The position numbers were made by a program, and so were the translations under genes. A stretch of 38,100 bases of DNA from an uncultured Clostridia bacterium (GTDB taxonomy: Bacteria > Bacillota > Clostridia > UBA1381), in assembly GCA_905236685.1 (NCBI GenBank), contig CAJOPD010000087.1, forward strand, positions 1-38,100, written 5' to 3'. The notes beneath the pieces were generated by a model. The model had not been told where the DNA came from and searched no databases. It worked only from the letters and a program-made list of their open reading frames with translations. Positions 2,303 through 19,370 of this stretch are shown here, in pieces; position 1 is the stretch's first letter, and every line of letters begins with the position of its first letter.

Positions 2303-3514
2303 TCACTCCTTTGATCGATTTGTTATTTCCTTTCCTTTGATTAGTGCTAACTTTTTATAATTTGGGTCAGTAAACCATTTTTCTTTCATCTGTACAAGTT
2401 CAAAGGTTTTATTATCAATATCACTCTTTTTAATTACATATATCGGTCTTTTCAACACAGAAAAATAATTTAGTTCATATTTGCACCAAACAGAATTTAG
2501 TGAATGTTCTGATTCTACAAAAATCAATGCGTTAGATTGTTCTAATCTTTTCTCTATAACCTTAAGTGTCGCTTCACATACCAGATGTCTTTTTAAGTAA
2601 TCAACATCATTAATCCAATCACAAAAAACATCCCGGCCTTTACTGTTTTCAAACATAATTAAGTCTTGTACAGAATCTCGATCTTTACTACTGTGAGATA
2701 TAAAATAATCGTATTTTTTTAGCTTTTGTTCTTTTGAATTTTCTATTCTATATTCTAATTCTTCTGGATTTTCGGGAATTCTATATATCTGTTTTGCATA
2801 TACATTTTTTAGAAAATTCTTTCTCTTTTTATTTCTTGTATGCACTTGCATATATTTTTGCTTTCTCACCCGTATGGGATAGTTAAAACTCTGCAAGTGA
2901 AAAAAAGCTTCCCAACGCAATTGCTGATTTATTTCTGTATCATTTAACTTAAAGAAAAATCGGATTATCTTAGGGCTGTAGTACTTTTTAAGTTCAAGCA
3001 AAATATACACTTTATCTTGCTGTGTTGTATTTTTTCTCTCATATAAACCAATTAGTTGGTCAATGAACGCCGGTGTAACTTGTTGAGTCTTCTTTAACGC
3101 CTTTTCGATTTTTAGGTTAATTTTTTCAATTTTTGGTTTCCTCTTAGCCCATAACGCACTTTGAGCTGCAGTCTGTGCATCTTCTGAATAATTGTTTTCC
3201 CATATTGTTTTATAATCATCAGATAATATTTTCTTAAATATGAATACATTTTTAAGCAAAATCTCCGGCTTATCCATATTATAACGATTTTTCCCAAAGT
3301 TCCTTTTTATATATTTATCTTTTGTTTTATAATATGAATATTTATCCTCGACAGCTTTCCACTCATGCGGATAATACTTCTTTAATAGTTCTATTATGTC
3401 ATTTTCAGTATATTCTTGTGGCAAAACAGGTTGTAAAGTTTCAATTTGTTTAGACCACATATTAATAATATCTCTAATTTCGTGTTCAAAAATATGTTTT
3501 GTTACTCCTGCCAT
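2303..3514 (-). CDS. TIR-domain protein with a helical/basic N-terminal region; candidate anti-phage effector
   Basis: C-terminal KYDYFISHSSKDRD...VFCDWINDVDYLKR...SNALIFVESEHSLNSVWCKYELNYF: TIR box 1 plus the WCxxEL motif carrying the predicted catalytic Glu. ORF track runs to 3523; ATG at 3514 gives MAGVTKHIFEHE. Confidence 0.85.
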   Translation of the reverse strand: MAGVTKHIFEHEIRDIINMWSKQIETLQPVLPQEYTENDIIELLKKYYPHEWKAVEDKYSYYKTKDKYIKRNFGKNRYNMDKPEILLKNVFIFKKILSDDYKTIWENNYSEDAQTAAQSALWAKRKPKIEKINLKIEKALKKTQQVTPAFIDQLIGLYERKNTTQQDKVYILLELKKYYSPKIIRFFFKLNDTEINQQLRWEAFFHLQSFNYPIRVRKQKYMQVHTRNKKRKNFLKNVYAKQIYRIPENPEELEYRIENSKEQKLKKYDYFISHSSKDRDSVQDLIMFENSKGRDVFCDWINDVDYLKRHLVCEATLKVIEKRLEQSNALIFVESEHSLNSVWCKYELNYFSVLKRPIYVIKKSDIDNKTFELVQMKEKWFTDPNYKKLALIKGKEITNRSKE

Positions 3515-3584
3515 GATTATCAAGCTTCCCTTTTATTTATCTTTATGAATTTTTTATATACCCTCTTGAATTAATGTATATATC

Positions 3585-10019: not shown

Positions 10020-10541
10020 TTATTCCGCAAAATCTTTTAATATTGGTAGGCATTCTTTTGAAGTAAAGCCCCATAAAATTGTACTTAAAACTTCAATGGC
10101 TTTGCTCCGCTTATTATAATAAGTTTTCCATGATATAGGCTCTGTTTTTGCATTGATGCTGTCTATTATATCCTCTACCCGCCTTGGCGGCTTTTCCGAG
10201 AGATATGTATAATACAATATCCAATAATAGAGTTCACCGTCAGCTTTCTTTTTTCTTAAAAGATCAACAGCAGCCTCAATAAGCTTGAGCATTTTTCTGT
10301 TTCGTTCCATTACCCTCATCTGCTCTTGTATGTCAGTTCCTGATAAATCAGCTCCCGCCTCGTAAGACATTTCCAAAAACTCCTCTATCTTACAATCCAT
10401 TTTCAGTTCAAAACTAATTTGCGTTTGAATTGCTGATACCTCTACACTCCATACTACATCTCTATATCTTTTTAATAAAAGCTCCGTATTGTGATAAAGA
10501 TATTCTTCCCTTTCTGTCCGTTTTTGTTCTTGCTTTTTCAT
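10020..10541 (-). CDS. Element-associated hypothetical protein, ArpU/sigma-like helical regulator
   Basis: 173 aa, overlaps repA by ATGA; C-terminal WKTYYNKRSKAIEVLSTILWG resembles ArpU-type regulators. Family is tentative. Confidence 0.5.
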   Translation of the reverse strand: MKKQEQKRTEREEYLYHNTELLLKRYRDVVWSVEVSAIQTQISFELKMDCKIEEFLEMSYEAGADLSGTDIQEQMRVMERNRKMLKLIEAAVDLLRKKKADGELYYWILYYTYLSEKPPRRVEDIIDSINAKTEPISWKTYYNKRSKAIEVLSTILWGFTSKECLPILKDFAE

Positions 10542-11497
10542 AATGTTCCTCCTCCTAAATCATAACTTGCTTCCGCTCTGTAATAGTGCCCGATTGTTGA
10601 AACCGAATTATACAGCATTGTCAAAAGATAGCTTTTAATATTCTTGACCTTTGTTGTATTGCTTTTCAATGAGTCCATAACATATTCGATATGTTTAGCA
10701 CGCACTCTTAACATTCGTTCAGTAACAAGAACCGTCGGCGTTTTCTCACTTGAAATAACCATATACGGCTTGTTACTGCAAACAATATCAAGCATTATGT
10801 TCACAAGACCGTCTATGTCCTCTTTCTTATGAGTTTTAATCAAACTGTCATAATCAATATTCTTTTTGATTGTTGCCTCGTAGAGACTTCTATCCATCAT
10901 ATCCTGCATAGGATCAGATAAGATAAACTCTGTATCGTTAAAATCAGTATTATTTATCTCAGTATTATTAGAGTCGGAATTTCCGACCTCCTGAAGTCTG
11001 TTTTCCGAACCACCAGAGGTCGGAATTTCCGACCTCTTGAAGTCGGTACTGTCCAGACCACCAGAAGTCTGTTTTTCCGACTTCTTGAAGTCTTCCCTTT
11101 CTGCCTTGCTTTCAGCGGCTTCACATATAACAGAATTGAAGTTCATAACATATATGTAAGAAGGTTTTCCCAGCCCTTGTCTTTTTCTGAAAATCAATCC
11201 ACACCCTTTTTCTGAATCCAATTCCGCAAAAAGCCTTACTGCCTTTTCTTTACAAATATTCATACATTCCATAGCCTCAGATACCTTAAAATATATATAG
11301 ACACGGTTTTCACCATCTATCCAGCCATTTCTTATTGACAGGGACATTCTATCTAAAAGAAGCCCATATAGAATCTTTGCCTCTGCTGACACTTCATAAA
11401 AGCTTTTATCGGTAAAAATCTGCTTGGGTATTCTGTAAAAAGAAAACTGCTCTGCTTCGTTACCATAAAAGAAATCAATCGTTAAATTATTTTTCAT
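10538..11497 (-). CDS. repA: RepA_N-type replication initiator
   Basis: 319 aa: FYRIPKQIFTDKSFYEVSAEAKILYGLLLDRMSLSIRNGWIDGENRVYIYFKVSEAMECMNICKEKAVRLFAELD is the classic RepA_N domain. Confidence 0.9.
   Translation of the reverse strand: MKNNLTIDFFYGNEAEQFSFYRIPKQIFTDKSFYEVSAEAKILYGLLLDRMSLSIRNGWIDGENRVYIYFKVSEAMECMNICKEKAVRLFAELDSEKGCGLIFRKRQGLGKPSYIYVMNFNSVICEAAESKAEREDFKKSEKQTSGGLDSTDFKRSEIPTSGGSENRLQEVGNSDSNNTEINNTDFNDTEFILSDPMQDMMDRSLYEATIKKNIDYDSLIKTHKKEDIDGLVNIMLDIVCSNKPYMVISSEKTPTVLVTERMLRVRAKHIEYVMDSLKSNTTKVKNIKSYLLTMLYNSVSTIGHYYRAEASYDLGGGTL
10971..11093. repeat. Imperfect tandem and palindromic repeats inside repA
   Basis: Coding strand has three units of GACTTCAaGAaGTCGGAAa..C. 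Includes the 23-bp palindrome AGAGGTCGGAATTTCCGACCTCT (11015-11037) and GTCGGAATTTCCGAC (10973-10987). Confidence 0.85.
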
Positions 11498-11905: not shown

Positions 11906-12919
11906 TCACATACCACAACATTTCATTATCAGTTTAAACAGTTCAAGCTCATAATCATATGTATAAGGATTTTCTTTATCTCCTCGTGTGTACGCTGCAA
12001 AATCCAACATCATAGGTTTGTATCTGTCATAGGTGTCACTCACGAGTTCAAACGAATTATCTCTCCATATGTCTGTTACATCGGATTTATATGTTACATG
12101 TGCTTTTGAAATAAATTCTGAATCATTCTTAGTCATTTTTCTTTCAATGGGTTTTATTTCAAAAGTTCCCTCTGTTCCGAGAACCACAAGCTGTCTACGC
12201 TCAAATCCATTTGTTTCGCAGGCACATACCTTTACAAACGAATACCCATATCCATAATCCAAAATTACAAATCCAAAGTCCTCTGCACCGTTCAAAAGGG
12301 TATCTTCGGTACAAGTATTAAGTGGAATTATTCGTTTGGGCGTTCCCTGAATTTTCATTATAAGATCAATTAGGTGACAACCTAAAAAATACATCATTCC
12401 GCCCTTATAATTGCCAAGCCATCTTCTTTTTTCTTCCGGATGGCATACGCTCATTTGTGCCTCAATGCTGAATACTTTTCCCAGTCTGCCTTGTCTAATA
12501 TCTTCCATACATCTTTCAATCATCGGATTATATCTATACATATATCCCATTTGAAAAGGTATTTTTTTACTTTTTGCAATATTAATTAATTCGGCAAAAC
12601 TTTCGTAGTTTTGCGTACCTGGCTTATCCAAATGAATTGCAACACCACGCTTTGCAAACATCTGTGCGTAGTATGTTGCTTTTTCTTCTTCACATTCTAT
12701 TGCTACCGCTTCTAAGTCATCCATAGCAAGCAGTTCTTCAACGGTAATTAAATTAGACTCATACTTAAACGAGAGGCATATTTCCCCGCTTGGTTCAGCC
12801 AAGCCAACGAAATCATACACCTCGTTTAAAGATTTTATGCATTGATATGTAAAGAATGCATGATCATGCCATGTTCCAATTTGTGCAATTTTTACGGGTT
12901 TCATTATATGTCCTCCCAA
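11906..12919 (-). CDS. Gfo/Idh/MocA family oxidoreductase
   Basis: 337 aa: VKIAQIGTWHDHA...AVAIECEEEKATYYAQMFAKRGVAIHLDKPGTQNYESF...FQMGYMYRYNPMI. Confidence 0.92.
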   Translation of the reverse strand: MGGHIMKPVKIAQIGTWHDHAFFTYQCIKSLNEVYDFVGLAEPSGEICLSFKYESNLITVEELLAMDDLEAVAIECEEEKATYYAQMFAKRGVAIHLDKPGTQNYESFAELINIAKSKKIPFQMGYMYRYNPMIERCMEDIRQGRLGKVFSIEAQMSVCHPEEKRRWLGNYKGGMMYFLGCHLIDLIMKIQGTPKRIIPLNTCTEDTLLNGAEDFGFVILDYGYGYSFVKVCACETNGFERRQLVVLGTEGTFEIKPIERKMTKNDSEFISKAHVTYKSDVTDIWRDNSFELVSDTYDRYKPMMLDFAAYTRGDKENPYTYDYELELFKLIMKCCGM

Positions 12920-12979
12920 TCAGACTAATCATAAGCAAATATGACTATATTATATCATATTTTTATAAAAATACAAGTT

Positions 12980-13807
12980 TTATCTAAAAACCGTTTTGCC
13001 GCCTTCAATGCAAAATACACCGTTATTATCCGAAGCCCACACATCTATCGCTGACGGATTATATATCATTTTAAAATCAGCGCTTACTTGAATACTTTTA
13101 TATGCCATAACATAATTATAAATTTCAATATTTGTAGCATACCAGATATCATCTCTTCCGCCTATAAACTTTGCAAAATTTTCAATAATATCCCAATTAT
13201 CATTATTGTCAAATTCATAACTATGTCCCCAAAGGTAAAACATTTTGCTTCTGTTCCAGCGGTCATCTGTGACAAATTTTTCTGCAAGTTCCATAAGTTT
13301 TGGATTGCTGTGATGACAGGTCGGATTAAGGATTAACCAATCCTCAGGAAATTCAAAATTTTCGGTGGATTTTCCTGCTCTCGAATATACAATACCGCAT
13401 TTTCTCAGTATTTCAATAATTCTATCATTATATTCACCATATGGATATGCCATACCGTTTGCAATACAGTTATACTGTTCTGATATGCTTTTTCTATCGC
13501 GGATTATCTCATTTATTATTTCTGTGTCACTAAGCTGCTTTAAAAACGAATGAGAGTATGTGTGAACTGCGACTTCATTACCCGAATTTGTGTAAAGCTT
13601 TTTTGCTTCTGATAATTTTAGTCTTCCATAAAACCGTTCTCTTTCTGCGGTCTCTGGGAGATACTTTCCTGCGTTTATGTTAAATGTCACTTTAAGCCCG
13701 TACTTTTTTGCAATTTCTGAAAGTCTGATATCTTGAACAACGGCGTCATCATAGCTAAGTGTGACAACTTTTAGTTTTCCGTCTTTTAATGCCATTTGCA
13801 TTATCAA
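12980..13807 (-). CDS. Polysaccharide deacetylase (NodB-like) family protein
   Basis: 275 aa: LSYDDAVVQD (DD motif), HTYSHS (H-x3-H metal motif), AYPYGEYND. Confidence 0.9.
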   Translation of the reverse strand: MIMQMALKDGKLKVVTLSYDDAVVQDIRLSEIAKKYGLKVTFNINAGKYLPETAERERFYGRLKLSEAKKLYTNSGNEVAVHTYSHSFLKQLSDTEIINEIIRDRKSISEQYNCIANGMAYPYGEYNDRIIEILRKCGIVYSRAGKSTENFEFPEDWLILNPTCHHSNPKLMELAEKFVTDDRWNRSKMFYLWGHSYEFDNNDNWDIIENFAKFIGGRDDIWYATNIEIYNYVMAYKSIQVSADFKMIYNPSAIDVWASDNNGVFCIEGGKTVFR

Positions 13808-14407
13808 TCACTCCCCATTCAGTCTTGCACCTACTGCACCGCCGGGGTGAATGAGTGCAAATTGTTCTTCTGAATAATCTGTTTCCTCAATTAAAGCTGC
13901 TTGAAGTGAGTGGAAAATCACAATGAGCGAGGTCGTTGAAGTGGTCCCCTGCATATTATGCTTATCGGTTTCACGGTTTATATACTGTTTTAAAACAACA
14001 TCTGCATTTTTTGCAAGAGGTGAGTCCAAATTTTCGGTAACGGTAATCACTTTTACACCCTTTTTCTTGCAAATATCAAGTATCGGCATAAGTTCAGCGG
14101 TCTTCCCTCCCCGAGACGCAAAAAGTATAACATCATTTTTTTTAAGATAACCGCTGCCGCCGTGTACGGCTTCTGCGGGCGAAATAAACCGCGCAGGGCG
14201 TTCTATACAGCACATAAGGTGTGCAAAATGCCGGCAGGCAATGCCCGAATGCCCACAGCCTGATGTAGCTATCCTTTCGGCATTTTTTAAAAGCTCCACA
14301 GCCTTTGAAAATGCGTTTTTATCAAAATTATTTTTTGCCTCTTTTATGCACTCAGTCTCGATATCATAGGCATTTTGTGCCATATGAAGAGCTATGTCTG
14401 AAATCAT
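13808..14407 (-). CDS. SIS-domain sugar phosphate isomerase (KdsD/GutQ-like, no CBS domains)
   Basis: 199 aa: IATSGCGHSGIACRHFAHLM...ILFASRGGKTAEL...ALIHPGGAVGARL. Confidence 0.9.
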   Translation of the reverse strand: MISDIALHMAQNAYDIETECIKEAKNNFDKNAFSKAVELLKNAERIATSGCGHSGIACRHFAHLMCCIERPARFISPAEAVHGGSGYLKKNDVILFASRGGKTAELMPILDICKKKGVKVITVTENLDSPLAKNADVVLKQYINRETDKHNMQGTTSTTSLIVIFHSLQAALIEETDYSEEQFALIHPGGAVGARLNGE

Positions 14408-14413
14408 ATCCCT

Positions 14414-15826
14414 TTACCCCCATAAAGTTTTATCAAGTTTTTGATATCTTTCGTAACAATCTGTATAATCCTTTCCGCTTGGCTTATACACTTTATTTGG
14501 CTTTACTGCGATTTCTACCGCCTGTTCTACGCTTTCAAATACACCTGTTGCTGTACCTGCAAGTATTGCGGAGCCAAGACAGGCTGTTTCATCGTTTTTC
14601 AGCGTAACAAAGGTTTTTTCGGTCATATCAGCCTTAATCTGACACCATAAAGAGCTCATAGCACCTCCGCCCATAGTGCGAATTTCCTGATAATCTGCTT
14701 TAATATAATCAAGGCTTGCTTTTAGCATACAAGCAACGGCTTCTAAAATACTTCTTACAAAATGCCCCCTTGTATGTTCCATTGTTATACCGAAAAAAAC
14801 TCCCTTTGCATCTGGATTATATTTAGGCATAGTAGCACCGCAAAGGTACGGCAAAAATGTCAGTCCTGCCGAGCCTTCGGGGACTTTTTCAGCTAAGCCG
14901 TCAAGTTCGGAAAATTTGAAATTTTCGCAGAAATTATTTTTAAACCATTTTAAAGCAATTCCTGCTGTGGCAGTCCAAGCTAACAGGCAATATTTTCCAT
15001 CATAGTTTATATGGCAAGGCGTTTTGCTTTCGGGGTTGTAAGCAGGGATTTGCTCTGTTGGTACAAAAACCACCATTGTTGTACCCGTCATCTCGCTTAT
15101 TACTCCTTTTTTTACAACACCCGCGCCGATTGCACCTGCAATCTGGTCAATAGCACCGGTTACAATCTTAATTCCTGAGTATTCGCCTATTTGCGTGCCG
15201 CAGGGAATTATTTCGGGAAATATGCTTTTATCTGTTCCGATGAATTCAAGCATTTCATTCCACCAGTTTTTGTTATGTATATCAAAATATATGGTTGAAG
15301 ATTGAAGTGTCGGCTCGGTAACAAATTTGCCTGTAAGCTTATATAGAAGATAGTCCTCCAAAAGCAATACTTTTTTTATCTTGACAAATATTTCCGGCTC
15401 GTTATTTTTAATCCACAAAAGCTTTGAAGCGGGCCAAGTTGCCGTAATTTCAGGCTGTCCCGTAACATCATAAACATACTTTTCGCCAAAATGCGCTTTT
15501 ATGGCATCTGCCTCGGCCGTTGCCCTGTTATCAAGCCAAACAATTGCTTTTCTAAGCGGTATTCCGGTCTCATCAGTTACAATCATTGTTTCGCATTGTG
15601 TATCTATTGCGAGTGCATATATAGGAAATTCGGCAGAGATTTCGTCTATTGCCTCTTTTGCCAAATTCCAATAGCTTTCTGCATCAAACTCCACAAAATC
15701 TCCCGAAACATCGAGAGTATAGTCTTTTATAACATACTTTACACATACCGCATTTTCGTCAAAAAGTGCCGCCTTTAATGATGTTGTTCCTACATCTATA
15801 CCGAGTAAATATTTCATAAAATCCAC
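14414..15826 (-). CDS. FGGY-family carbohydrate kinase
   Basis: 470 aa: YLLGIDVGTTSLKAALFDENA...AIVWLDNRATAEAD...ITATWPASKLLWIKNNEPE...TMGGGAMSSLWCQIKADM. Confidence 0.95.
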   Translation of the reverse strand: MDFMKYLLGIDVGTTSLKAALFDENAVCVKYVIKDYTLDVSGDFVEFDAESYWNLAKEAIDEISAEFPIYALAIDTQCETMIVTDETGIPLRKAIVWLDNRATAEADAIKAHFGEKYVYDVTGQPEITATWPASKLLWIKNNEPEIFVKIKKVLLLEDYLLYKLTGKFVTEPTLQSSTIYFDIHNKNWWNEMLEFIGTDKSIFPEIIPCGTQIGEYSGIKIVTGAIDQIAGAIGAGVVKKGVISEMTGTTMVVFVPTEQIPAYNPESKTPCHINYDGKYCLLAWTATAGIALKWFKNNFCENFKFSELDGLAEKVPEGSAGLTFLPYLCGATMPKYNPDAKGVFFGITMEHTRGHFVRSILEAVACMLKASLDYIKADYQEIRTMGGGAMSSLWCQIKADMTEKTFVTLKNDETACLGSAILAGTATGVFESVEQAVEIAVKPNKVYKPSGKDYTDCYERYQKLDKTLWG

Positions 15827-15833
15827 CTATATT

Positions 15834-15861
15834 TTTTAGGGTAGGATAACCTACCCTAAAA
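15834..15861. repeat. Perfect 12-bp inverted repeat between yjbQ-like and kinase genes
   Basis: TTTTAGGGTAGG-ATAA-CCTACCCTAAAA. Confidence 0.9.
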
Positions 15862-15866
15862 TCAAA

Positions 15867-16487
15867 TTATCTTTTTAACTGCAAGTCATAGTGAAGATCA
15901 TAAGCTTTTTCTTCGTCTGTAAACTTATGCTTTGTGTCGATAACTTCACCATTATTCCATTTTCTGTCGCCTACATCTTCGGCTGTTCCCATAACAGTAA
16001 TATTAACCTGTCTATGACGAGCAAGAACATGATCCCAGTCAATAAAGTAGATGTGCGCAAATCTTCCGCCGTCAACTTCCCCATCTTTTACTGTCAGAGT
16101 TTCGCTTCTGCCAAAGAAAACGCTGCGGAGATGTCCGTCTGTATTCATACTTGAAAAATCACCGGGTTCGTCAACATATCTACCGTATTGTGCGTGAATA
16201 GGTCCCGGATGACGATATTGATGCTCCTCCATAAAATCGGGAATAAACTTTCTCATAATGTCTAACAGGTCGTGCTGCAAGAACTCCAAATCAAACGAAT
16301 CGATGTCGTGCGAGCATTCTTGTACCATAACAGAACAAGTTGTATGATGGGATACAACGCTTACTGTACCATTCTTAATCCCAGATGCCGCAACAATTTC
16401 ATTTACTTCCTTTGAAATGTCGTGAAATGTCGGTATCCAACCTCTTGACTGTAACTCCAATTCCTTTTGAAAAACTTTAAATTCCAT
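15867..16487 (-). CDS. YjbQ/UPF0047 family protein, long variant
   Basis: 206 aa: EIVAASGIKNGTVSVVSHHTTCSVMVQECS...DFLQHDLLD..., NTDGHLRSVFFGRSETLTVKDGEVDGGRFAHIYFIDWD. Confidence 0.8.
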   Translation of the reverse strand: MEFKVFQKELELQSRGWIPTFHDISKEVNEIVAASGIKNGTVSVVSHHTTCSVMVQECSHDIDSFDLEFLQHDLLDIMRKFIPDFMEEHQYRHPGPIHAQYGRYVDEPGDFSSMNTDGHLRSVFFGRSETLTVKDGEVDGGRFAHIYFIDWDHVLARHRQVNITVMGTAEDVGDRKWNNGEVIDTKHKFTDEEKAYDLHYDLQLKR

Positions 16488-16525
16488 TTTTTTCTACCTC
16501 TCTTTATATATTTTTTTATTTTGAA

Positions 16526-17227
16526 CTAATTATGTAATTCGTCCCAGGCTTTGCGCAAGTTGTATAACATTTCTTCTACCATTTCATATGGTCTGTCGGA
16601 CTTCATTATACCGCTTGTTGTTCCTGTTGCCTGAGCACCTAATTTTATGGTGTTATACACATCTTGTCCGTTTGAAATGCCTGCGCCTTGAAGCACCATA
16701 ATATCGGGGTTTATCTCATTTACTCTTTTAATAGTTTCAGTAACATAGTTTGCATCGCTTGTAACGCCTGTTCCAATGAGCTCTGTTGGCTCTGCCACCA
16801 AAAGATTTGGTGACATTTTCGCGATTTCGCAAAGCTCTTCCACAGTATCGGCACAAACAATTGTAGCAAGCCCTACTTCATCTGCGCGATTTATTGTCTT
16901 TTCAACCACATCAAGCGTAAGCTTTTTCTCTGCGTGATTTAGCATAACACCCTTAGCGCCTGCCGCTTTTACCGCTTCTGGAAGTACCGAACCAAGTCCT
17001 CTTCCCTGCGTCAAATAGTCCATATGCTGTGCAAATACCAAAATTCTTTCAGTATTGTCAGCAAGTAGCTTTATATCGGTGTATTGCGGTGTTACAATAA
17101 CATCAAGGTCATATTTTATCGCCGTTTTGTCAATTACCTTCGCAAGTGCAAGCATTTCTTCACCATAGAGAAAAGCCTTAGGTCCAATCTCAAAAAACGG
17201 CGGTTTTATCTTAAAATCCTTATACAT
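16526..17227 (-). CDS. Triose-phosphate-isomerase-family protein (paralog, EryH/LerI-type candidate)
   Basis: 233 aa: Lys in GPKAFLYG, His in GVMLNHAEKKL, Glu in VAEPTELIGTG, phosphate loops IGTG and GISNGQDVYN...GTTSGIMKS. Confidence 0.88.
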   Translation of the reverse strand: MYKDFKIKPPFFEIGPKAFLYGEEMLALAKVIDKTAIKYDLDVIVTPQYTDIKLLADNTERILVFAQHMDYLTQGRGLGSVLPEAVKAAGAKGVMLNHAEKKLTLDVVEKTINRADEVGLATIVCADTVEELCEIAKMSPNLLVAEPTELIGTGVTSDANYVTETIKRVNEINPDIMVLQGAGISNGQDVYNTIKLGAQATGTTSGIMKSDRPYEMVEEMLYNLRKAWDELHN

Positions 17228-17239
17228 ATGTTGCTCTCC

Positions 17240-17914
17240 TTAGAAATCCAAAATTTTCTTATCCCCGTAAATGCTCTTCCAATCCTTAGTAAAACCGTCA
17301 ATTGCAGCGTCTGTCATCGGGTGTGAAATTGCAATTTCAAATAAATCCGGCGAAATTGTAGCAGTATGGCACCCGCAAAGCGCGCAGTTATGTATCTGCT
17401 CGGCATTTTTAAAGCTTGCAGCTAAGACTTGGCAGTCAAGACCGTAGTTATCAAATACCGTAACGATATCCTCAACAACTCGAACTCCGTCGCCTATGAT
17501 ATTATCAAGCCTATTAACATACGGTGCAACGAATGATGCGCCTGCACGGGCTGCAATTAACGCCTGCTGAGGTGTGAAGATTGCAGTCATAGTAACGCCA
17601 ATTCCCAACTTTTTAAGCATCATTGTAGCTTTTAAGCCTTCCTCGCCTATCGGAATTTTTACAAAAAATTTTCCGCCAACAGTTTCCTTAATAAGCTTTG
17701 CCTCTTCTACGATTTTTTCAGCAGTTTCCTGAACTGTCTGCACATGGAGCGCCTTGTCCTCGCCTATTATCCCTCTAATGCTCTTGATAAGTGTCCAAAA
17801 ATCCGATTTTTCCTTTGAAACAAGCGTCGGATTTGTTGTTACACCCTCAATAGGATAGAACTCGTTAATATGCTTTATTGCATCTAAGTTCCCTGTGTCA
17901 ATTAAGTACTTCAT
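17240..17914 (-). CDS. Transaldolase / fructose-6-phosphate aldolase-like (FSA/TalC)
   Basis: 224 aa: MKYLIDTGNLDAIKHINEFYPIEGVTTNPTLVSKE, KIPIGEEGLKA, VTMTAIFTPQQALIAARAGASFVAPYVNRLD. Confidence 0.94.
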   Translation of the reverse strand: MKYLIDTGNLDAIKHINEFYPIEGVTTNPTLVSKEKSDFWTLIKSIRGIIGEDKALHVQTVQETAEKIVEEAKLIKETVGGKFFVKIPIGEEGLKATMMLKKLGIGVTMTAIFTPQQALIAARAGASFVAPYVNRLDNIIGDGVRVVEDIVTVFDNYGLDCQVLAASFKNAEQIHNCALCGCHTATISPDLFEIAISHPMTDAAIDGFTKDWKSIYGDKKILDF

Positions 17915-19224
17915 ATGATTTCAACCCCCAATATTTCACATAGATTTTTTATTTTCTCGGTATTATCGCCATAAGAAATAATATAGTGCTGGCACATTAC
18001 CTTGTCGGCAAAATCTTCTACATCGTCAAGCAGAATTTCAAGTCCGGGTAATTGCGGTGCGGGCTGTGTCCAGCCTGCTTCCTCCCACTTTCTCGGAGTA
18101 ATTCCTTCTCCTACTACCATATGCATATAGTATTCGCCGTCAATTGAGGTCAGGCGGCACATTGTAACCTTACCTGTTTTAACCTTACTCACATTTAAAA
18201 TACCTTCTGAAAGCTCTCCGAATGCGGCAGGGATAACTTCTGTTTTTTCTGTAACCTCATTGGGTACATAATCGGGAACGCCTGCCAAAACTCTATCTTT
18301 GAAAAATTCATAAAATTCCAGATAGAATGCACACTGCCCTGTTAAATACTTTACCATAAGCTGTGTAATGCAGCCCAAGGAGTCGTTTTCGGGAACTGTG
18401 CAAAGCCCTGCCTCATCAGCAAGGAGCATAAATATCGGTGCAGGCGGGAAACCTAAAAGTTTCTTCATACCGTCAACATCTTTTAACGATACCGCATCAT
18501 ATCCACGCTCGTCGCAAATTTGTTTAACAGCAAGATAATATCCCGCCGCTATTTTCATACTTTCAGGATTTGCAGGCTTTTTAAAGTCCCACTTGCTCAT
18601 AACATTATCAATTACAGCCTGTTTTTCGCTATCGGTAATCTTGTTATATCTCTGCTCAATTTCAAGCATTTCAAAGGTTTCAATTTCCGCTCCTATTTCA
18701 CGCTTTAATGAGCCTCCGTCATATAGCGTTCCGTATAAATTCATATCACGGTAGCCTGCCATACCCGCTTTTGCAATTCTTTCGGTTAAAAATGCAAGAG
18801 CTTCGCTGCTATTCATAAAGTCATCGCCCTTTTTTGAAACCTTTACCTGATATTGCTTCTCGGGAGGCAAAAAACTGTCTAATATATCCTTCGTAGTAGC
18901 AGCGGAAAGCTTTGCAGACTCTCCGCGGTCATACACATGCGATGTGTGAGTATGTATTGCGCTTAATATAATTTTGTCAGTATCTATATCGCTATTTTGG
19001 GATTTTACCTGTTCCCTTACATTTTCCAGCAGATTTTCGCCTATACTTACTAAGTCACAGGAGCATATTATCATCTGCTCGCCGTTTGATTCAACGGCAA
19101 GTGCAGTTGCGGTTATCGGCGTTTCTACATATTCGGATATTCGTTCTGCAAATTGTCCTGCTAAGGCTATTTTTTTATCGGGTGTTATACTTACTTCCGA
19201 CCAGCCTATTTTTAACTCTGTCAT
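17911..19224 (-). CDS. Neutral/alkaline ceramidase-like (N-terminal domain) hydrolase
   Basis: 437 aa: LKIGWSEVSITPDKKIALAGQF...ALAVESNGEQMIICSCDLVSI...ILSAIHTHTSHVY. Overlaps the transaldolase gene by ATGA. Confidence 0.8.
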   Translation of the reverse strand: MTELKIGWSEVSITPDKKIALAGQFAERISEYVETPITATALAVESNGEQMIICSCDLVSIGENLLENVREQVKSQNSDIDTDKIILSAIHTHTSHVYDRGESAKLSAATTKDILDSFLPPEKQYQVKVSKKGDDFMNSSEALAFLTERIAKAGMAGYRDMNLYGTLYDGGSLKREIGAEIETFEMLEIEQRYNKITDSEKQAVIDNVMSKWDFKKPANPESMKIAAGYYLAVKQICDERGYDAVSLKDVDGMKKLLGFPPAPIFMLLADEAGLCTVPENDSLGCITQLMVKYLTGQCAFYLEFYEFFKDRVLAGVPDYVPNEVTEKTEVIPAAFGELSEGILNVSKVKTGKVTMCRLTSIDGEYYMHMVVGEGITPRKWEEAGWTQPAPQLPGLEILLDDVEDFADKVMCQHYIISYGDNTEKIKNLCEILGVEII

Positions 19225-19286
19225 ATCACTATTATCCTTTCTGTAACTAAAATGGTATGTATTTTAAACTCTGCGATATCGTTTTT

Positions 19287-19298
19287 GGCATAAATGCC
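19287..19298. promoter_or_regulatory. Operator candidate: palindrome GGCATAAATGCC
   Basis: Perfect 5-bp arms, located between the promoter and the start of the carbohydrate operon. Confidence 0.4.
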
Positions 19299-19315
19299 TT
19301 AATTTGCTATGGTTT

Positions 19316-19344
19316 ATTTTATAATCTTTCAACGGCTTTGTCAA
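19316..19344 (-). promoter_or_regulatory. Sigma-A type promoter of the carbohydrate operon
   Basis: Minus strand TTGACA (19339-19344) - 17 nt - TAAAAT (19316-19321). Confidence 0.65.
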
Positions 19345-19370
19345 TACATTTTGGAATAAAAAAACATATC

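Follow-up and report, generated by a model that had tools for sequence, protein, structure and literature searches.

Which sugar is broken down by the operon at positions 11906-19224 of a Clostridia contig, and by what route? The window analysed here is a 38,100-nucleotide stretch of an uncultured Clostridia bacterium (contig CAJOPD010000087.1), in which eight co-directional open reading frames (ORFs) run on the minus strand from 19224 to 11906 with intergenic gaps of -4 to 60 bp. A first-pass annotation, made from the letters alone, had described an eight-gene carbohydrate operon, and the eight ORFs are indeed there, with Pfam and NCBIfam searches upholding the family calls for seven of them. 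Its interval of 11906-19350 holds at the 11906 end; the upstream gene boundary lies at 19224, with the best promoter-like site beyond it at 19344-19316. We consider it somewhat better than an even bet, for the explanation as a whole, that the locus represents a sugar-catabolic operon that occurs patchily among gut Clostridia. The copy in the window is itself probably crippled or misassembled.

A single scan across 84,980 species genomes, with the triose-phosphate isomerase (TIM) paralogue of the operon as the query, returned 80 loci, many of them ended by contig edges. Every one comes from a metagenome assembly of Clostridia or related Bacillota, mostly of gut or rumen origin and with ruminants as frequent hosts. 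Besides the query itself (80), these loci carry a SIS-type sugar-phosphate isomerase (68), a YjbQ protein (66), an FGGY carbohydrate kinase (53), an FSA-type aldolase (48), a sugar isomerase that we call ISO (36), a DeoR regulator (30) and a ceramidase-like hydrolase that we call CER (28). Where at least 6 kb are available on either side (37 loci), YjbQ is present in 34, SIS in 32, FGGY in 28, FSA in 24 and ISO in 21. The unit is conserved far beyond chance. The TIM-like, SIS and YjbQ genes form its core, and FGGY, FSA, ISO, CER and the DeoR regulator are the usual extras. Although rumen and hindgut Clostridia often carry the operon, it has neither a name nor an assigned substrate. The annotation could map the gene combination to no named pathway, and had allowed for a characterised operon with the same gene set; in searches of an open-access full-text library (YjbQ, UPF0047, FSA, ceramidase operons) we found neither such an operon nor a named pathway, and the set now stands at 80 syntenic loci.

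The conservation search that the annotation had proposed recovers the core in this way, but not the last two genes of the window. The NodB-like polysaccharide deacetylase (12980-13807) is a lineage-specific addition, and the Gfo/Idh/MocA oxidoreductase (11906-12919) lies outside the conserved operon. At 1e-10 no homologue of either is found in the 80 loci, and at 1e-3 a single Gfo match of 23% identity appears. Only in a single contig, from a genus relative (L171), does a deacetylase again adjoin SIS, and there GH88-, KduI- and SDR-type genes follow it. Both genes were dropped as pathway members on this lack of conservation. The spread of the operon is patchy, with ISO at E below 1e-160 in about 20 of 393 class members, and TIM is 94-97% identical in genera whose members mostly lack it; this fits horizontal transfer.

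The first gene is where the window departs from its relatives. As assembled, the ORF at 17911-19224 (437 aa) is an in-frame fusion of the N-terminal third of CER and the C-terminal two thirds of ISO. It had been annotated as a ceramidase-like hydrolase, but a plain hydrolase is ruled out by its domain matches and by alignment to the separate genes of relatives. The likeness to ceramidase is confined to the N-terminal part, and residues 174-437 match L-fucose/L-arabinose isomerase domains. Residues 1 to about 152-155 align with the roughly 500-aa CER of the nearest relatives, and residues 149-437 align with residues 159-447 of their roughly 448-aa ISO at 86-95% identity. The CER-derived part (18769-19224, amino acids 1 to about 152) is 77% identical to the N-terminal part of CER in L025 and L027 and retains only the first zinc-ligand motif, HTHT. 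The ISO-derived part (17911-18780, amino acids 149-437) has lost its first 158 residues, and with them the full N-terminal domain of the L-arabinose/L-fucose isomerase superfamily, and keeps the metal-ligand positions. In this assembly, then, CER is without its C-terminal two thirds and ISO without its N-terminal domain, whether the cause is a deletion or an artefact.

We put the chance that the fusion is an assembly artefact, the living strain having intact CER and ISO, at a little short of even. In the nearest relatives (L025, L027, L024 and L026) CER and ISO are two separate full genes, and they are also apart in two genus relatives with the locus. The source assembly is of the metagenome type, in 126 contigs and 87% complete, and genome-wide checks in it were family searches. 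Both halves of the fusion have ratios of non-synonymous to synonymous substitution (dN/dS) similar to those of intact homologues. Neither half shows signs of decay, and a genuine deletion would therefore be a recent one. Three observations speak against an artefact: the join is in frame, its microhomology (gene nucleotides 450-458, at 18767-18775) spans only about 8-10 nt, below the usual assembly k-mers, and the truncated copy is the sole ISO match in the genome. If the join is not an artefact of assembly, the fusion means that the first two pathway steps are probably lost in the window copy, which should not be taken for a complete pathway.

To identify CER and ISO, we used AlphaFold models of the intact L025 proteins, built from alignments of the locus proteins (predicted local distance difference test scores of 76 for CER and 85 for ISO). 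The predicted fold of ISO is that of the L-arabinose/L-fucose isomerase superfamily: Foldseek matches it to L-arabinose isomerase 2ajt (E 1e-21, TM score about 0.77) and also to L-fucose isomerases. Identity to AraA and FucI structures is only 10-15%, and a PDB sequence search with either the fusion or a single ISO gave no matches, so that profile and fold searches were needed. The invariant E289 and E313 of ISO, both kept in the fusion half, align with E337 and D361 of FucI, which we take to be metal ligands; the Glu plus Glu/Asp pair of the superfamily is thus present. These models point to an AraA/FucI-type sugar isomerase. Similarly, the modelled CER matches neutral ceramidase 2zws (E 4e-21) and would be a ceramidase-fold hydrolase of the PF04734 type, although its score against PF04734 itself is 14 bits for a cut-off of 32. 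Its first His motif is aligned and kept, a second zinc-ligand His falls opposite the invariant Cys234 in a low-scoring alignment, and no obvious signal peptide is seen.

The remaining enzymes lie downstream of the fusion. The aldolase (17240-17914) keeps Q59, K85, Y131 and R134 in E. coli FSA numbering. Its active-site residues are of the FSA rather than the transaldolase type, given that a Schiff-base Lys with Gln59 and Tyr131 presumably marks the former and Glu and Phe the latter. It is closer to FSA than to SF-transaldolase structures (1e-47 versus 1e-33) and scores 232 bits against TIGR00875, just under the cut-off of 245.95. In the archaeal-type TIM paralogue (PRK04302 subfamily, 16526-17227), alignment with 1hg3 shows that the catalytic Lys, His and Glu are kept and that the N-x-K motif has become G-P-K, with Gly for Asn, in the window and across the family. 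A canonical TIM is encoded elsewhere in the genome (G000:C67), and together with the altered motif this suggests that the paralogue probably acts on another substrate. In the genus relative G001 (6% contamination) we noted six matches to the TIM paralogue on separate contigs, several of them 95-97% identical to that of the window; they are possibly mixed strains or true paralogues.

YjbQ (15867-16487) is the 206-aa long form of UPF0047; structures and a weak thiamine-phosphate activity are most of what is known of this widespread family. All core genes have dN/dS of about 0.1 or below, and YjbQ has the lowest in the operon, with 98-99.5% identity in the nearest relatives. Between the window and L027 its amino acid identity is 99.5% at a dS of about 1.1, above every other operon gene. 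The FGGY kinase (14414-15826) is xylulokinase-like and scores 319.6 bits against the xylulokinase model TIGR01312, for a cut-off of 380.25. The SIS protein (13808-14407) is a shorter, single-domain KpsF/KdsD-type sugar-phosphate isomerase with 117.4 bits against TIGR00393 (KdsD/KpsF), for a cut-off of 203.7.

The relatives also show how the pathway may be entered. CER occurs exclusively together with ISO (26 of 26 in the co-occurrence count). ISO is found in 35 loci and a NagB-like gene in 18, with no overlap among the 80. This divergent NagB-like protein, whose main form reaches only about 30 bits where NagB cut-offs exceed 230, is accompanied by a NagA-like deacetylase in 14 of its 18 loci. 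FGGY is present in 34 of the 35 ISO loci versus 7 of the 18 NagB-like loci, as expected if the NagB-like substrate is already phosphorylated. On the simplest reading, each module yields a ketose phosphate, with ISO acting on a free sugar ahead of the kinase and the NagB-like protein on a phosphorylated amino sugar. L025 carries CER/ISO and, downstream, NagA, a different NagB-like gene and a GH20 hexosaminidase. We suggest, as a tentative proposal that could well fail, that two entry modules (CER, ISO and FGGY, or NagA-like and NagB-like) converge on one ketose phosphate degraded by SIS, YjbQ, FSA and the retuned TIM. If true, this route would for the first time assign a clear physiological role to UPF0047/YjbQ, that of a sugar-phosphate enzyme.

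The module swap also bears on the substrate. The first-pass annotation had proposed an acylated or N-acyl sugar because of two hydrolases in the window. Neither serves as evidence there, since only part of the ceramidase gene is left and the deacetylase lies outside the conserved unit. The idea itself gains indirect support from the gene content of relatives, in the restriction of CER to ISO loci and the exchange with NagA-like and NagB-like genes.

From the gene content, families, predicted folds and synteny, and from the fusion as assembled, we infer the reactions, their order and the substrate. On balance we lean towards an unnamed catabolic operon for a probably acyl- or amino-modified sugar, whose intact copies would work as follows. 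CER, as a zinc hydrolase, would strip an acyl or similar group from the imported sugar, and ISO would convert the aldose to a ketose for phosphorylation by the FGGY kinase. SIS, perhaps with YjbQ, would then rearrange the ketose phosphate, and the FSA-type aldolase would split the product into a C2 or C3 aldehyde or ketone and a triose phosphate. The modified TIM would convert an unusual triose or tetrose phosphate. In other loci the NagA-like and NagB-like proteins would deliver the ketose phosphate in place of CER and ISO. The kinase-isomerase-aldolase-TIM logic of the annotation holds in this scheme and is strengthened by the aldose-ketose isomerase hidden in the first gene.

Several points weigh against this proposal. 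Some loci that are complete in other respects lack FSA (L059, L063, L070 and L073 among them). In the window's genome FSA is the sole gene of the transaldolase/FSA family found in the 87%-complete assembly; it could simply be the general transaldolase of this organism. The most conserved gene, YjbQ, is left without an explained role by the pathway model. SIS carries His at what we take to be the Lys59 position of KdsD, and for this reason need not act on arabinose-5-phosphate. Finally, the Fisher value for the exclusivity of ISO and NagB-like genes (p = 5e-6) ignores the relatedness of the loci.

Within the proposed operon, the sugar could be a hexose, a version to which we would commit only with reserve. 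ISO and FGGY would yield a hexulose-6-phosphate (fructose- or sorbose-like), FSA would cleave it to dihydroxyacetone and D- or L-glyceraldehyde-3-phosphate, and the altered TIM would serve an L-configured or unusual triose phosphate. The FSA-type active site agrees with this, as does the TIM paralogue with its altered motif beside a canonical TIM, and the NagA/NagB-like alternatives point to C6 ketose phosphates derived from hexosamines. Yet SIS, being of the KpsF type whose members usually isomerise C5 phosphates, is left without a clear role, and no dihydroxyacetone kinase was noticed beside the operon. In a pentose version, a ketopentose would become a ketopentose-5-phosphate, SIS would make an arabinose-5-phosphate-like aldose phosphate from it, and FSA would release glycolaldehyde and glyceraldehyde-3-phosphate. 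A synthetic pathway in which FsaA and KdsD link glycolaldehyde and glyceraldehyde-3-phosphate with arabinose-5-phosphate and ribulose-5-phosphate has been described (PMC9947464), and by analogy the operon might be its natural catabolic counterpart, which we regard as rather doubtful.

A tetritol-type pathway (erythritol or threitol), with the TIM paralogue resembling EryH and FGGY resembling EryA, is very unlikely. The two genes do occur together, and an RpiB/DerI-like gene lies downstream in L048, but that is the one inspected locus with an RpiB-like gene by the core, the operon has an aldose isomerase rather than polyol-phosphate dehydrogenases, and FSA, SIS and CER would go unexplained. A sulfoquinovose sulfo-TAL variant with SftI-type isomerase and SftT-type transaldolase is scarcely credible: intact ISO is weakly related to SftI and SF-transaldolases are distant matches of the aldolase, but ISO reaches 43.3 bits against NF048012 for a cut-off of 700, the aldolase is nearer to FSA, a kinase and SIS are present, and no sulfolactaldehyde dehydrogenase or reductase was identified in the inspected loci; membership was excluded on the SftI score and gene content.

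The annotation had also noted the lack of a transporter and placed uptake elsewhere. The first point is correct for the window copy but not for the system, and uptake is not simply encoded elsewhere. An MFS gene lies within the operon in L024 and L026, two MFS genes separate FGGY and ISO in L142, a ChvE/GguAB-like ABC system lies upstream in L070, and ABC genes flank ISO on both sides in L156. The absence of a transporter is therefore a trait of the window copy; no homologue of the L024 MFS gene was found in its genome (assembly 87% complete). In L156:3550-11807, ISO sits between two sugar ABC transporter sets, with no TIM, SIS or YjbQ in the stretch examined.

Upstream of the operon, the promoter-like site (19316-19344, minus strand, TTGACA-17-TAAAAT) agrees with the consensus at 11 of 12 positions in a consensus scan; as a consensus match only it is weak evidence, the region holding 33 such sites versus 26.3 expected. 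Other neighbouring genes were noted in passing. L025:1832-3187 and L022:1994-3346 encode a fused electron-transfer flavoprotein (a single chain with a beta-like and an alpha-like part) directly behind a second FGGY kinase, upstream of the operon. In L095:12689-17960, L077 and L101, a 2-oxoacid dehydrogenase complex (E2, E3, fused E1), unusual for anaerobic Clostridia, follows 40-95 bp behind FSA. To the left of the operon in the window, two ORFs at 10020-11497 resemble by eye RepA_N-like replication or mobile-element proteins and may mark an integrated element beside it. The C-terminal part of the ORF at 2303-3523 resembles by eye a TIR-type domain (FISHSSKDRD), possibly of a defence-related protein.

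Solving the operon would reveal a sugar eaten by these gut communities and provide a testable role for YjbQ/UPF0047. Known systems each share a part of it. CER resembles neutral/alkaline ceramidases (PF04734) in its predicted fold and first His motif, and differs in falling under the Pfam cut-off, in the invariant Cys opposite a zinc-ligand His, in having no obvious signal peptide and, in the window, in its truncation. The sulfo-TAL pathway likewise combines an SftI-related isomerase with an aldolase of the FSA/transaldolase superfamily; here a kinase is present, the SftI cut-off is missed and no sulfonate enzymes were identified. GlcNAc catabolism offers NagA and NagB, whose relatives stand in for CER and ISO in other loci, but its canonical form needs no TIM/SIS/YjbQ/FSA set. 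The synthetic arabinose-5-phosphate (GAA) pathway (PMC9947464) similarly uses an FSA aldolase and a KpsF/KdsD-type isomerase to link glycolaldehyde and glyceraldehyde-3-phosphate with a pentulose-5-phosphate; it is engineered and assimilatory, whereas the operon would run catabolically, with an extra isomerase and kinase. Finally, fucIKA (L-fucose/D-arabinose) and araBAD (L-arabinose) share the plan of an AraA/FucI-fold isomerase, an FGGY kinase and an enzyme for cleavage or rearrangement, and the fuc operon also has a DeoR-type regulator. In contrast to their class II aldolase or AraD epimerase, the operon has an FSA-type Schiff-base aldolase, to which it adds the TIM paralogue, SIS, YjbQ and a ceramidase-fold hydrolase.

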